NCBI GenBank assembly: GCA_003990705.1
Contig: AP018318.1
Span: 1,863,501 to 1,927,500 of the forward strand
DNA from: Nostoc sp. HK-01
GTDB taxonomy: Bacteria; Cyanobacteriota; Cyanobacteriia; Cyanobacteriales; Nostocaceae
Length of the DNA stretch: 64,000 nucleotides
Direction of reading: 5' to 3'
Each line of letters begins with the position of its first letter. Position 1 is the first letter of the stretch. A program made the position numbers and the translations under genes. This document shows positions 37,060 to 41,393 of this stretch, piece by piece. The notes beneath the pieces are model-generated. The model made no database searches. It was not told where the DNA came from and saw only the letters and a list, made by a program, of their open reading frames with translations.

Positions 37060-37455
37060 CTAATTTTTCAACCAGTTTTCTAACTGTAAATTAGGAATAT
37101 TAATAAAATCTTTGATGTTATTAGTTACGAGAATATCATTACGAGAACGAGCAACAGCAGCAATCAAAGCATCTACTTCGCCAGTTGGTTTCCCGATTTT
37201 TTTGAGTTCGCTGTGAATTTTACCAAATTCACAAGCTGCGTCTATATCGAATGGTTCTATTAGTAATAATTCAAGAAACTGCTGCAAACTTTCTTGATTT
37301 TTGGCTAATTGTTGAGAATAATAAACACCTTTATAAAGTTCTGCAACTATAATTGTGGATAGATAACATTGACTAAAGTAGAGATTAAATTTCCTCACGG
37401 CTTGGGTATCTGCTTTGAGCAATGCAATGCAAATGTTAGTGTCTAACAGATACAT
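37060..37455 (-). CDS. vapC: VapC-like PIN-domain toxin
   Basis: A 131-residue PIN-domain ribonuclease: [16 protein letters not shown] has the first Asp at position 5, ELYKGVYYSQQL the Glu, GEVDALIAAVARSRNDILVT the third acidic and the conserved Ala-rich helix, and NNIKDF the final Asp. The stop of the upstream antitoxin and this start share bases (TAATG), so they are translationally coupled. It forms a toxin-antitoxin pair with the RHH protein at 37455-37799. Confidence 0.92.
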   Translation of the reverse strand: MYLLDTNICIALLKADTQAVRKFNLYFSQCYLSTIIVAELYKGVYYSQQLAKNQESLQQFLELLLIEPFDIDAACEFGKIHSELKKIGKPTGEVDALIAAVARSRNDILVTNNIKDFINIPNLQLENWLKN

Positions 37456-37799
37456 TAGCCGTTATCCTGATTATCAATTGAGTCTAGGCTTCTACCTTGA
37501 TAGACATGACGTTGCTGGTCAATTTCTGCAAATATTTCTGTTAAGTCTGGTTGATTTTTCCACGCCCCAAATAATTTATTTAATTTAGCTAATTTCTCTT
37601 CTGCTGTTAAATCTAATTGTGTTTCAGCTGTTGGCTTTTCAACATTCTGTAATTGACGTAAACGTTTTTGCTTCCACTCGCGCAGTGCTTCACGAATTAC
37701 CTCACTGCTACTGGCATATTCCCCTGACTCTACAGCATTACGAACCAAAGCTGCCATTTCTGGGGTCAGGGCAACACTGATTTTTTCGACGTTAGGCAT
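37455..37799 (-). CDS. parD: ParD-like ribbon-helix-helix antitoxin
   Basis: The 114-residue protein opens with [20 protein letters not shown] and [20 protein letters not shown], the ribbon-helix-helix module of ParD/CC2985-type antitoxins, then has a disordered, charged tail ([20 protein letters not shown], acidic end) that probably wraps the toxin. ParD usually pairs with ParE, yet here the partner is a PIN toxin, so this is a mixed pair, which does occur among bacterial toxin-antitoxin loci. The complex should repress its own operon. Confidence 0.9.
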
Positions 37800-37962: not shown

Positions 37963-39438
37963 ATGACTTCTGCTACTCCAGTCAAAACTGAGTACGAAGC
38001 GATTATTGGTCTAGAAACCCATTGTCAGCTAAGTACGAATACAAAAATTTTCTCTAGTAGCTCTACAGCGTTCGGTGCTGATCCAAATACTAACATTGAC
38101 CCCGTGTGTATGGGATTACCTGGGGTTTTACCCGTACTCAACGAAAAAGTTCTAGAGTATGCAGTGAAAGCAGGTTTAGCATTGAATTGCCAAATCGCTA
38201 AATATAGCAAATTTGACCGTAAACAGTATTTTTATCCTGATTTACCGAAGAATTACCAAATTTCTCAATATGACTTACCCATTGCTGAACATGGTTGGTT
38301 AGAAATTGAGTTGGTAGATGCTGAAGGAAATCCTGTTCGTAAACGCATTGGTATTACCCGCCTGCACATGGAAGAAGATGCAGGTAAGTTAGTTCATGCG
38401 GGAAGCGATCGCCTCTCTGGTTCCAGCTATTCTTTAGTAGACTATAACCGTGCAGGTGTACCGTTAGTCGAAATTGTCTCGGAACCCGATATTCGTTCTG
38501 GACAAGAAGCTGCGGAATACGCCCAAGAGTTACGCCGGATTATGCGTTATCTCGGTGTGAGTGACGGGAATATGCAGGAAGGATCGTTGCGTTGCGATGT
38601 TAACATCTCTGTGCGCCCCGTCGGACAAGAAAAATTTGGCACGAAGGTAGAAATTAAAAATATGAACTCCTTCAACGCCATTCAACGGGCGATTGAATAC
38701 GAAATTGAACGCCAAATCGCCGCCGTCGAAGCCGGAGAACGCATCATTCAAGAAACCCGGTTGTGGGAAGAAGGCGCACAACGCACAATTAGTATGCGGA
38801 CTAAAGAAGGTTCTAGTGATTATCGCTACTTCCCCGAACCAGATTTAGCACCCATTGAAGTATCTGATACTCAACTAGAGAACTGGCGTAGCGAACTACC
38901 AGAACTCCCCGCCCAAAAGCGTCATCGTTATGAAACCCAATTGGGACTGTCAGCTTATGATGCGCGAGTCTTGACAGAAGAGCGCTACGTATCAGAATAT
39001 TTTGAAGCAGCGATCGCATCTGGGGCAAATCCCAAAGCAGCCGCAAACTGGATTACTCAAGATATCGCCGCATATCTCAACAAGCAAAAACTCAATATTG
39101 CTGATATTGCTTTAACCCCTGCTAACTTGGCTGAAGTCATTACCCGCATTGAGACTGGCAAAATTAGCAACGCCCAAGCTAAAGAAAAATTGCCAGATTT
39201 ACTCCAAGGTTTGACACCCGAAAAAGCTTTTGCAGGTCAAGAACTCATCACCGACCCCAGTGTCCTAGAACCAATTGTCGATGAAGTGATTGCGGCGAAC
39301 CCCAAAGAACTAGAAAAATACCGTAATGGTAACACCAATCTCAAAGGCTTCTTTGTCGGGCAAGTGCTGAAAAAGACTAGCAAACGTGCTGATCCGAAGT
39401 TAACTAACGAACTGGTGGATAAAAAGCTGAATGCTTAA
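37963..39438 (+). CDS. gatB: Aspartyl/glutamyl-tRNA(Asn/Gln) amidotransferase subunit B
   Basis: GatB is the tRNA-binding and kinase subunit of GatCAB, which turns Glu-tRNA(Gln) into Gln-tRNA(Gln) and, in many bacteria, Asp-tRNA(Asn) likewise. The 491-residue product has YEAIIGLETHCQLSTNTKIF at the start, the metal and nucleotide part DRKQYFYPDLPKNYQISQYD, RLHMEEDAGKLVH and GSLRCDVNISVRP, and the C-terminal GatB/YqeY domain ending VGQVLKKTSKRADPKLTNEL. Alone here; gatA and gatC must be elsewhere. It is divergent from the parD/vapC pair. Confidence 0.98.
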   Translation: MTSATPVKTEYEAIIGLETHCQLSTNTKIFSSSSTAFGADPNTNIDPVCMGLPGVLPVLNEKVLEYAVKAGLALNCQIAKYSKFDRKQYFYPDLPKNYQISQYDLPIAEHGWLEIELVDAEGNPVRKRIGITRLHMEEDAGKLVHAGSDRLSGSSYSLVDYNRAGVPLVEIVSEPDIRSGQEAAEYAQELRRIMRYLGVSDGNMQEGSLRCDVNISVRPVGQEKFGTKVEIKNMNSFNAIQRAIEYEIERQIAAVEAGERIIQETRLWEEGAQRTISMRTKEGSSDYRYFPEPDLAPIEVSDTQLENWRSELPELPAQKRHRYETQLGLSAYDARVLTEERYVSEYFEAAIASGANPKAAANWITQDIAAYLNKQKLNIADIALTPANLAEVITRIETGKISNAQAKEKLPDLLQGLTPEKAFAGQELITDPSVLEPIVDEVIAANPKELEKYRNGNTNLKGFFVGQVLKKTSKRADPKLTNELVDKKLNA

Positions 39439-39559
39439 TTTGATTGACAGTAAATTCTTGACAATCAGATATTTTCTCCGGTTTTAGTTCAGTAGTATCT
39501 TCACAGTATATTTACTAAAATTACAGCTTACTAAGTAATAACCCTCACAAATAAAAGGC

Positions 39560-39626
39560 TATTATTTGCTTAGTAGATGCACCCTAATGATTCGGAGAGT
39601 TGCCCCAGCTTCTCTCCTTATTTTTT
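39560..39626 (+). ncRNA. Candidate small RNA 1 (with -10 box, ~54 nt transcript)
   Basis: TATTAT (39560-39565) followed by six bases and the A at 39572 places a plausible transcription start at AGTAGATGCACCCT (39572-39585). The transcript would end at a hairpin GGAGAG / CTCTCC (39594-39599, 39612-39617) and a T-rich tail. The same design recurs at 39926, which supports a real unit. No coding capacity and no known family recognised. It lies 133 nt after the gatB stop, so the hairpin could also serve as a gatB terminator. Confidence 0.6.
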
Positions 39627-39913
39627 AGCTAAGAAGTTATGTTTCTATCACATTTGCAATCTTGATTTGGTAAGCAAAATAGTTGACTTAGCAAATTTAT
39701 TTGCTCAAGCAAGTAATTCAACCTATCAAAGCAATCAAAAGTGATTAAAGGTAACTATAAATGTCAATGTGCATTTTTAGATGTGACACAGACTAGTAAC
39801 CAAATTTACCATTTTCATTTAAAATTTTATGTCTAAGTAGTCTACGGATAAATTCTTAATAATATTTATACAAAAAAACAAATAATGGGTGATACTCCTC
39901 ATGGCAAAAATGA

Positions 39914-39976
39914 TATGCTGTGTTAAGTAGATGCACCCTGATGATCTGGAGAGCTGCTCAAGTGGCTCTCCTTTTT
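39914..39976 (+). ncRNA. Candidate small RNA 2 (paralogue of RNA 1, ~51 nt transcript)
   Basis: TATGCT (39914-39919), six bases, then A39926 starts AGTAGATGCACCCT (39926-39939), identical to the 14 nt at 39572. It continues RATGATYYGGAGAG in both copies. The hairpin GGAGAGC / GCTCTCC (39948-39954, 39965-39971) is followed by TTTTT, a textbook terminator. The region between the hairpin and the shared motif is conserved but loops differ. Neither unit has an obvious -35 box, so an activator may be needed. Confidence 0.65.
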
Positions 39977-40082
39977 CAATAGATGTAGGCAGTAGGGAAT
40001 GCACAAATGACAATTGACTATTGACTGTGGACTATTGGTATAATCGCCAGTCAAGCCGCTAATTTTGTGGGGGAACGTAAAA

Positions 40083-41393
40083 ATGGCAGACTGGCAAGAA
40101 ATTACTGGTGGTGTGACTGCTCCTAAAGGATATCGAGCCGTAGGAATCACCGCAGGATTAAAACCATCGGGATTGCCAGATTTAGCTTTGATAGTCTCTG
40201 ATGTAGAGGCGATCGCATCTGGTGTATTTACCACTTCTCAAGTTAAAGCCGCCTGTGTAGATTATTGCCGTCAAATTTTACAAGCCAAACCTAGCGCTCG
40301 TGCCATTCTTTGCAACGCCGGACAAGCCAACGCCGCCACAGGTAGTCAAGGTATACATGATGCTAATGAAAGTGCGGAGTTGTTAGCCAAAGAATTGAAT
40401 ATTTCTCCAGAATTGATTTTGTTAGCTTCTACTGGTGTAATTGGTCAACGCATCAAGATGGATGCCTTACGCAGCGGGATTCCTAAATTAGTAGCAGCAC
40501 TTTCCGAAACAGGTTCAGATGCTGCTGCTGGAGCAATTATCACCACAGATTTAGTACCAAAATCCATTGCACTAGAAACAACTATAAGCGATCGCCCAGT
40601 CCGCATTGGTGGTATTGCCAAAGGTTCCGGGATGATTCACCCCAACATGGCAACGATGCTGGCATTTGTTACCTGTGATGCGGCTGTTTCCCCCCATCTT
40701 TGGCAGCAGATGTTAAGTAGAGCAGCAGATAAAAGCTTTAATTCCATTACTGTTGATGGCGATACCAGCACCAACGACAGCTTAATTGCCTTGGCGAATG
40801 GTCAATCTCGCACCCCAGCAATTACCGAGATGGGTGCAGAAGCTGAAAAATTAGAAGCCATGTTAACAGCAGTATGCCAGCATTTAGCTAAAGCGATCGC
40901 ACGGGATGGTGAAGGTGCAACCTGCCTCATAGAAGTGCAAGTTACCGGCACCCATGATGATCTCGCAGCAAGACAAATCGCCAAAACCATTGCAGGTTCA
41001 TCCTTAGTTAAATCTGCAATCTTTGGTCGTGATCCCAACTGGGGACGCATCGCCGCCGCCGCCGGACGCGCAGGTGTACCCTTTGAACAGGATAACTTGC
41101 AAATTAAATTAGGCGATTTCCTGCTGTTAGAAAATGGTCAACCTCTGCAATTTGACCGCGCCGCAGCCAGCGCATATTTAAAACAAGCAGCTACCGATTA
41201 TCCCGTTGCTGATTTAGTGGCTACTAATAATAGTAATGATTTATCAGGCGAGCGTAGTAATATCAAAACTCAACGATTAGATAATCCCGTAATTATTGCC
41301 GTCAGTGTTGGTAATGGTCATGGTACAGGTAAAGCTTGGGGTTGTGATTTAAGTTACGACTACGTGAAAATTAACGCCGAGTACACAACTTAG
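40083..41393 (+). CDS. argJ: Bifunctional ornithine acetyltransferase/N-acetylglutamate synthase
   Basis: ArgJ transfers acetyl from N-acetylornithine to glutamate in the cyclic arginine pathway and may also use acetyl-CoA. The 436-residue precursor cleaves itself at the Thr of GMIHPNMATMLAFVTCDAAV into two chains, with the catalytic Thr at the start of the beta chain. GVTAPKGYRAVGITAGLKPS, CNAGQANAATGSQG, GDTSTNDSLIALANG and FGRDPNWGRIAAAAGRAGV are family stretches. I start at 40083 (MADWQEITGG), after GGGGGAACG, rather than at the in-frame 40065. A TATAAT at 40039-40044 could be the -10 box of its promoter. It follows the two small-RNA-like units. Confidence 0.97.
   Translation: MADWQEITGGVTAPKGYRAVGITAGLKPSGLPDLALIVSDVEAIASGVFTTSQVKAACVDYCRQILQAKPSARAILCNAGQANAATGSQGIHDANESAELLAKELNISPELILLASTGVIGQRIKMDALRSGIPKLVAALSETGSDAAAGAIITTDLVPKSIALETTISDRPVRIGGIAKGSGMIHPNMATMLAFVTCDAAVSPHLWQQMLSRAADKSFNSITVDGDTSTNDSLIALANGQSRTPAITEMGAEAEKLEAMLTAVCQHLAKAIARDGEGATCLIEVQVTGTHDDLAARQIAKTIAGSSLVKSAIFGRDPNWGRIAAAAGRAGVPFEQDNLQIKLGDFLLLENGQPLQFDRAAASAYLKQAATDYPVADLVATNNSNDLSGERSNIKTQRLDNPVIIAVSVGNGHGTGKAWGCDLSYDYVKINAEYTT

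Follow-up and report, generated by a model that had tools for sequence, protein, structure and literature searches.

Predicted small RNA genes with the NsiR1 seed and a HetR-type operator between gatB and argJ of filamentous cyanobacteria

Two units in the spacer between gatB and argJ

The window analyzed here is a 64,000-nucleotide stretch of the Nostoc sp. HK-01 genome (contig AP018318.1, positions 1,863,501 to 1,927,500). The spacer between gatB and argJ in this window harbors two short units, 354 bp apart, with an identical 14-mer (AGTAGATGCACCCT, 39572-39585 and 39926-39939), which is followed by AATGATTCGGAGAG and GATGATCTGGAGAG in these units (Table 1). The -10 boxes TATTAT (39560-39565) and TATGCT (39914-39919) each stop six bases 5′ of the first A of the motif, and a GC hairpin with a T-run closes each unit. 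An earlier note on this DNA had described this arrangement from the letters alone, and the coordinates bear it out. Both units fold, unit 2 with -17.9 kcal/mol (z -2.1) and unit 1 with -14.5 kcal/mol (z -2.9). In a terminator search of positions 39400-40100, unit 2 was the sole terminator-like match and unit 1 was not called; two sigma-70-like pairs were found in the same interval, neither of them at the promoters of the units. The -10 box of unit 2 is extended (TG-A-TATGCT), that of unit 1 is not. In addition, a palindromic element that the earlier note had missed ends 15-16 bp 5′ of the -10 box in each unit. It deviates from GGG-N5-CCC in two of the six fixed bases in unit 1 and in one of six in unit 2, and the degenerate form of unit 1 is also present in three other loci (L083, L099, L128).

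Table 1. Genes and predicted elements of the gatB-argJ region (window coordinates)
Feature	Position	Strand	Description
gatB	37963..39438	+	NF004012, 699.3 bits; upstream flank kept with the sRNA locus
Unit 1 degenerate HetR-type operator AGT-AATAA-CCC	39534..39544	+	left half lost; right half + TCA kept
Unit 1 -10 box TATTAT	39560..39565	+	column conservation, 238 aligned copies
Unit 1 predicted sRNA	39572..39626	+	unpaired 5′ part 39572-39593, hairpin 39594-39617, T-rich tail to 39626; 5′ end predicted
Unit 2 HetR-type operator GGG-TGATA-CTC, then CTCA	39887..39897	+	one mismatch to GGG-N5-CCC; alignment of 235 copies
Unit 2 extended -10 TG-A-TATGCT	39911..39919	+	family columns -19 to -11
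Unit 2 predicted sRNA	39926..39976	+	unpaired 5′ part 39926-39947, hairpin 39948-39971, T-run 39972-39976; 5′ end predicted
argJ	40083..41393	+	TIGR00120, 533.3 bits; downstream flank kept with the sRNA locus; start ATG 40083

The predicted 5′ end of each unit is the A of AGTAGATG. For argJ, ATG 40083 was taken as start codon, whereas the open reading frame list starts at TTG 40065. Just 5′ of gatB (37060-37799, minus strand), two small open reading frames resemble a toxin-antitoxin pair by eye, with a 131-aa PIN-like protein and a 114-aa ribbon-helix-helix-like partner.

A search of the window for the 14-mer with up to two mismatches yielded two matches, both exact; 100 shuffled windows gave 0.31 matches on average, and three of them reached two. 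Within the whole 7.5-Mb genome, the unit pattern (≤ 3 mismatches) occurs at these two places only. The covariance model R1 recovered unit 1 with an E-value of 9.5e-15 (G000:C1:1903072-1903129) and unit 2 with 7.5e-17, both copies being part of the model's own alignment.

A conserved family with a HetR-type operator

When related genomes were searched with a pattern consisting of the seed and GGAGAG (≤ 3 mismatches), 110 of 150 contained a match, compared to one match (in G136) for the reversed pattern. The exact seed pattern was present in at least 116 stretches of named genomes, among them representatives of Anabaena, Nostoc, Calothrix, Scytonema, Symploca, Moorena, Leptolyngbya, Phormidesmis, Spirulina, and Coleofasciculus. 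Since the pattern searches demanded the seed, its near-fixity is partly a product of their construction; the -10 box and the operator were never demanded by the gathering searches, and the hairpin was not demanded by the exact-seed search.

The structure alignment comprised 55 of 72 dissimilar copies, 17 having been removed by hand. In these 55 copies, 93.3% of the cells of the hairpin were paired and seven of the nine pairs varied on both sides. None of 500 shuffled alignments scored as high on four of five covariation measures, five did so on the fifth, and slid alignments were paired to 44-61% only. The hairpin differs in length among the copies, and TTTT follows it in 229 of 238 copies. 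In the consensus structure the seed is unpaired and lies in the 5′ segment AGUAGAUGCACCCURAUGAU. The conserved seed proposed in the earlier note was thus recovered, but it extends beyond GAUGCACCC to about GUAGAUGCACCCUGAUGAU.

Distantly related genera share the gatB-argJ position of the units. Among 104 named loci, 44 showed both gatB and argJ, 16 argJ alone, 19 gatB alone, and 25 neither, as counted in 8-kb stretches of which many are cut by stretch or contig ends. The earlier note had proposed sRNAs of about 50 nt in which a conserved 5′ seed precedes a terminator, and had named motif and hairpin conservation among relatives as a test. Both are conserved in the aligned homologous copies, many of which lie at gatB-argJ, and the covariation, the conserved -10 box, the TTTT stretch and the synteny support the proposal. 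The two units thus belong to a conserved family of predicted sRNAs of filamentous cyanobacteria. The family also includes seven tandem copies with a spacing of 221-241 bp in Moorena sp. SIO3I8 (L062, 4914-6341), with neither gatB nor argJ beside them in the 8-kb stretch.

Alignment of 238 copies on the seed revealed a conserved extended -10 region TGnTATACT (T 74%, G 80%, followed by a TATACT-like hexamer) and a palindrome starting about 27 bp 5′ of it. With the G of GATG as reference, 160 of 259 copies have an exact GGG-N5-CCC at positions -46 to -40, and 233 have it with no more than one mismatch; shuffled upstream regions reached this in 0.07% and 0.8%, respectively. Nine of the 259 copies, some of them non-members, lack the G-rich hairpin start of the family, and without them the count with at most one mismatch is 232 of 250. 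The consensus of 235 copies is AATARGGGGTGACACCCCTCA, centered about 34 bp 5′ of the predicted start, and promoter and operator keep their spacing across the copies. The absence of -35 boxes, which had been read in the earlier note as a hint for regulated promoters, fits to this arrangement, as the HetR-type operator takes the place of the -35 region in the family.

The sequence GGGnnnnnCCC is reported as a requirement of HetR (PMC4192349), and the HetR site at hetP is given as GAGGGGTCTAACCCCTC (PMC4192349, PMC4649674). At the hetP locus, all nine genomes of the genus of the window contain ATGAGGGGTCAAACCCCTCA or a close variant. The operator of the family, GGGGT-nnn-ACCCCTCA, is the HetR operator core found at hetP, and it shares the GGG-N5-CCC core and the right arm ACCCCTCA with the HetR operators of hetP and hetZ. 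In contrast to these, it overlaps the -35 region of the sRNA promoter, with its center at about -34 from the inferred start; the hetZ stretch of Nodularia is described as lying 56-17 nt 5′ of its start (PMC3610870).

By our own grouping of genera, 42 of 43 copies from named non-heterocystous genera have an exact operator; of 126 copies from heterocystous genera, 57 have an exact one and 58 are one mismatch off; 89 copies were left ungrouped, and one unicellular copy has no operator. The clade of the window is among those with a degenerate operator, and with one and two mismatches in its two copies, control by HetR may be weak there. In the filtered ChIP table of Flaherty, obtained with another strain, neither gatB nor argJ appears under its gene name; the filter applied there would discard a target that is only an sRNA, and hetZ is missing from the table, too.

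Relation to NsiR1 and co-occurrence with hetR

The 5′ segment of the family, GUAGAUGCACCCUGAU, is that of NsiR1 (RF02399), which is described as a HetR-dependent, induced heterocyst sRNA (PMC9045159). The earlier note knew of no family with this sequence, which has to be corrected: a known relative exists, although it scores below the Rfam cut-off. At the gathering score, Rfam yielded no match anywhere in the window. With E ≤ 1, the interval 39400-40100 matched NsiR1 and, in addition, only sbrA at chance level. Unit 2 reached 26.4 bits and unit 1 25.6 bits with RF02399, below its gathering cut-off of 39, and 14 matches in eight other loci scored 26.9-33.8 bits. The RF02399 consensus starts with UGGUAGAUGCACCCUGAU, and each unit matches 16 of these 18 bases, unit 2 differing in the first two bases and unit 1 in the second base and in a G to A exchange of CCUGAU. 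IsaR1 and NsiR4, which the earlier note had kept as candidates, are short conserved cyanobacterial sRNAs; the lack of a match to them in the Rfam search of 39400-40100 is telling only if Rfam models them.

The two groups are alike in the near-identical 5′ segment UAGAUGCACCCUGAU, in shortness, in a Rho-independent terminator, in frequent tandem copies, and in the link to HetR. They differ in the hairpin, which is GGAGAG..CTCTCC in the gatB-argJ family, and in the promoter, where NsiR1 has the DIF1 motif TCCGGA at -35 and the gatB-argJ family the HetR palindrome. TCCGGA is absent near the -35 position of both units, the sole TCCGG of the spacer (39477-39481) lying 95 bp 5′ of unit 1. Among 320 seed places, 162 had the operator only, 44 DIF1 only, 114 neither, and none an exact operator together with DIF1. 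Copies of the DIF1 type, which combine the shared 5′ segment with TCCGGA or a close variant of it at -35 and have different hairpins, were also weak matches of the R1 model.

The DIF1 class with the seed of the family is NsiR1. All 12 copies of one tandem array (L269) passed the RF02399 cut-off with 44-77 bits, and this array lies opposite HetF (NF045509); the nsiR1 array has been described as opposite to and upstream of hetF (PMC8406250, PMC9045159). The units of the window, in contrast, lie in the gatB-argJ spacer. In the taxonomic family of the window, 57 of 60 genomes contain TCCGG with GTAGATGCACCCTGAT 24-32 bases further on. The genome of the window has its own NsiR1, with 12 of 13 seed copies above the cut-off in an array of nine (L236, C1:335761-336787), most copies of which carry TCCGGT instead of TCCGGA, and an array of four (L235, C1:41870-42556) about 3 kb from hetR and beside an S8-peptidase-like gene. 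No HetF-like open reading frame was seen in either stretch. Five other genomes (G013, G059, G062, G044, G022) have one NsiR1 array between an S8-peptidase-like gene and a HetF-like open reading frame, which was family-tested as HetF in G013 only. Two lone copies in the genome of the window (L223, G000:C1:1053076; L225, G000:C1:2106241), each preceded by TCCGGA and followed by a hairpin, have slightly altered seeds (...CCCTTAT, ...CCCTGGT) and are possibly further solitary NsiR1-like genes. In a Hormoscilla sp. stretch (L098, 1732-2523), four copies have promoters of the type TTCCGGAT and hairpins that vary; to our knowledge heterocyst formation is not known in Hormoscilla, and DIF1-type control may therefore extend beyond heterocyst formers. 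The shared seed, together with the differences in promoter, locus and score, marks the pair in the window as a sibling family of NsiR1 with a different HetR-linked switch.

Unlike NsiR1, the gatB-argJ family is common among non-heterocystous genera with hetR. We compared its occurrence with that of hetR, which in the genome of the window is located at C1:45743-46642 (NF009718, 625.6 bits). Based on R1 for the sRNA (194 genomes) and PF03574 for hetR (196 genomes) at E ≤ 1e-4, 185 of 388 genomes of the class had both, nine the sRNA only, 11 hetR only, and 183 neither, an agreement in 368 of 388 genomes in counts uncorrected for shared ancestry. The corresponding numbers were 188, 23, 8, and 169 at 1e-3 and 180, 8, 16, and 184 at 1e-6; the threshold of 1e-4 drops weak R1 matches (E 1.6e-4 to 8.3e-4) in one genus (g130) and two small genomes. 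A few R1 matches at 1e-4 are of the DIF1 type (G090, G368), including both copies read in G368. At the level of families, 20 hold both, three the sRNA only (f8, f18, f39), and two hetR only (f42, f50). Of the genomes with hetR only, seven (G158, G166, G189, G263, G406, G459, G486) have DIF1-like copies as weak matches, one (G446) has no such copy among its weak matches, and three (G081, G215, G315) have R1 matches at 1.6e-4 to 3.2e-4. Among 37 further genomes at the order level, hetR was present in 15 of 16 with the seed and GGAGAG pattern and in six of 21 without it. Of the 20 genomes traced from selected loci, 18 contained hetR.

Chroococcidiopsidaceae and Gloeocapsopsis are unicellular lineages. 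In a Chroococcidiopsidaceae MAG (L117) and in Gloeocapsopsis crepidinum (G106; L130, also L006), no hetR was found; the sRNA at gatB-argJ is kept in both, and the palindrome is absent. Two other genomes without detectable hetR (G389, G394) have one sRNA without palindrome, in a 3-kb stretch lacking gatB and argJ. One of the searches behind the genomes without hetR lacked its own positive control, and six genomes, mostly drafts, combine the sRNA and an exact operator with no hetR found (G155, G097, G428, G496, G237, G480). As hetR is present in congeners of the last four and in a genus of the same family as G097 (99% complete, 320 contigs), assembly gaps are likely in these five. G155, which is 99% complete, remains an exception to the link between hetR and the operator. 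A MAG labeled Prochloron (L009, L076) contains hetR (5.6e-63) together with a unit of the family whose operator is exact. Prochloron is unicellular, so that either the label or the cell type is questionable.

Possible targets, control by HetR and alternatives

The hetP-like gene alr3234 is a reported target of NsiR1, which pairs with its translation start and represses it (PMC9045159). Of 26 hetP-family loci, 24 were scored for pairing with the units (L285 and L300 were left out). Seven were named alr3234-like for their MYQL or MHQL start, because PMC9045159 puts a tyrosine at position 2, which is seen in two of the seven. At these starts the seed of unit 2 reached -13.3 to -15.4 kcal/mol, with modest z-scores of -1.7 to -2.4, and the seven orthologs are not independent. 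Values were -12.8 to -13.6 kcal/mol at seven MNYQ paralogs (z -1.2 to -1.8; the NsiR1 of this genome gave -16.4 to -18.4 kcal/mol), -5.8 to -8.3 kcal/mol at nine hetP starts (z 0 to 1.1), and -13.2 kcal/mol at L275 (z -0.45). Unit 1 gave -13.2 to -15.2 kcal/mol at the alr3234-like starts and a z-score of -1.5 at one hetP start. In the predicted duplex, GAUGCACCCU faces GAGGG and AUGYAUC around the start codon. The pairing supports, without proving, a target shared with NsiR1. HetR is reported to activate or inhibit hetP and alr3234 (PMC11298460), and the sRNA would add a further arm to that control.

Taken together, the twin units are probably two genes for HetR-controlled, trans-acting sRNAs of about 50-55 nt with a Rho-independent terminator, which carry the seed of NsiR1 as their unpaired 5′ segment and perhaps act on its hetP-like target. 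The sequences themselves show the seed identity, the operator, the synteny, the covariation and the co-occurrence with hetR; from these we infer that the units are transcribed, that HetR binds and with which sign, and which mRNAs are targeted. Transcription would start from a promoter with a -10 box, extended in unit 2, and without -35 hexamer, and the palindrome about 34 bp upstream would place it under the control of HetR, which is more likely a class-II-like activator than a repressor. The seed would pair with ribosome-binding and start regions of mRNAs, probably including that of the hetP-like gene repressed by NsiR1, and block translation; NsiR1 would present the same seed under a DIF1 promoter.

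The same sRNA genes might instead be repressed by HetR covering the -35 region and be made where HetR is low. We consider this possible but clearly less probable than activation: the operator overlaps the -35 region, a conserved extended -10 region would need no -35 hexamer, and both activation and inhibition by HetR are on record (PMC11298460), whereas NsiR1 with its identical seed is described as HetR-dependent and induced (PMC9045159) and no sequence feature decides the sign. Rather unlikely is another regulator of similar specificity that reads the palindrome, with hetR co-occurring through ancestry only. The imperfect copies of the window and the six genomes with an operator but no detectable hetR would agree with it; the agreement of sRNA and hetR across the class, the same core at hetP in the genus of the window, and the absence of the operator at the gatB-argJ sRNA of two genomes lacking hetR argue against it.

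A cis-acting leader or attenuator of argJ, in which the hairpin of unit 2 would terminate or permit read-through, was considered because unit 2 stops 106 bp before the argJ ATG and gatB and/or argJ flank 79 of the 104 named loci. It is improbable in view of tandem arrays of complete units, in which every unit has a -10 box and most have an operator of their own, of copies elsewhere (seven in Moorena; 25 loci with neither gene, some cut by contig ends), of the unpaired seed, and of the trans action reported for the same seed in NsiR1 (PMC9045159). The tandem copies and the ATG inside the seed might also suggest that the units are merely a duplicated terminator or an intergenic repeat, or that a short open reading frame begins at ATGCACCC. 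This was rejected, as the genome holds just the two unit matches, the third codon positions of that frame are 93-99% fixed (partly by construction of the search), the 5-nt leader before the ATG lacks a ribosome-binding site, and the hairpin varies in length at constant distance of promoter and operator.

NsiR2, NsiR3, NsiR8, NsiR9, NsrR1, and 4547237r of Nostoc PCC 7120 are likewise short sRNAs of heterocystous cyanobacteria. The unnamed 51-nt sRNA 4547237r has nearly the length of the family but is reported from heterocystous strains only (PMC4734099), and NsiR2 is named in PMC6316151 without a sequence; both were compared by description. An NsiR1-like 57-nt RNA is reported in Limnospira, also without sequence (PMC8400943), and RF02399 appears in a Shewanella table (PMC5471319). 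The literature covered, with subscription papers and supplements mostly outside, contained no description of an sRNA family at gatB-argJ, and an earlier notice is possible, e.g., in table S3 of PMC4734099; the literal seed strings were absent from the text searched, in which the hetP operator string was found. The observation of the earlier note holds and reaches further than stated there, to a predicted sRNA family that combines the NsiR1 seed with a HetR-type operator and a recurrent genomic position.

The presence of this family at gatB-argJ in many filamentous cyanobacteria indicates that the link from HetR to an sRNA probably predates heterocysts. Going further, the gatB-argJ module of HetR, operator and sRNA might be an ancestral direct HetR target throughout filamentous cyanobacteria, strictest in non-heterocystous species, without operator in some lineages lacking hetR, and sharing its seed with NsiR1 or having supplied it; we give this an even chance. 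NsiR1 would thereby be placed in a larger family with one seed and two HetR-linked promoter types. The functions of hetR and patX in non-heterocystous species are described as a mystery (PMC11298460). The gatB-argJ sRNA, which carries a HetR-type operator, recurs at the same position and tracks hetR across 388 genomes, is a candidate HetR target in such species and suggests that HetR may have a role in cyanobacteria that never make heterocysts.
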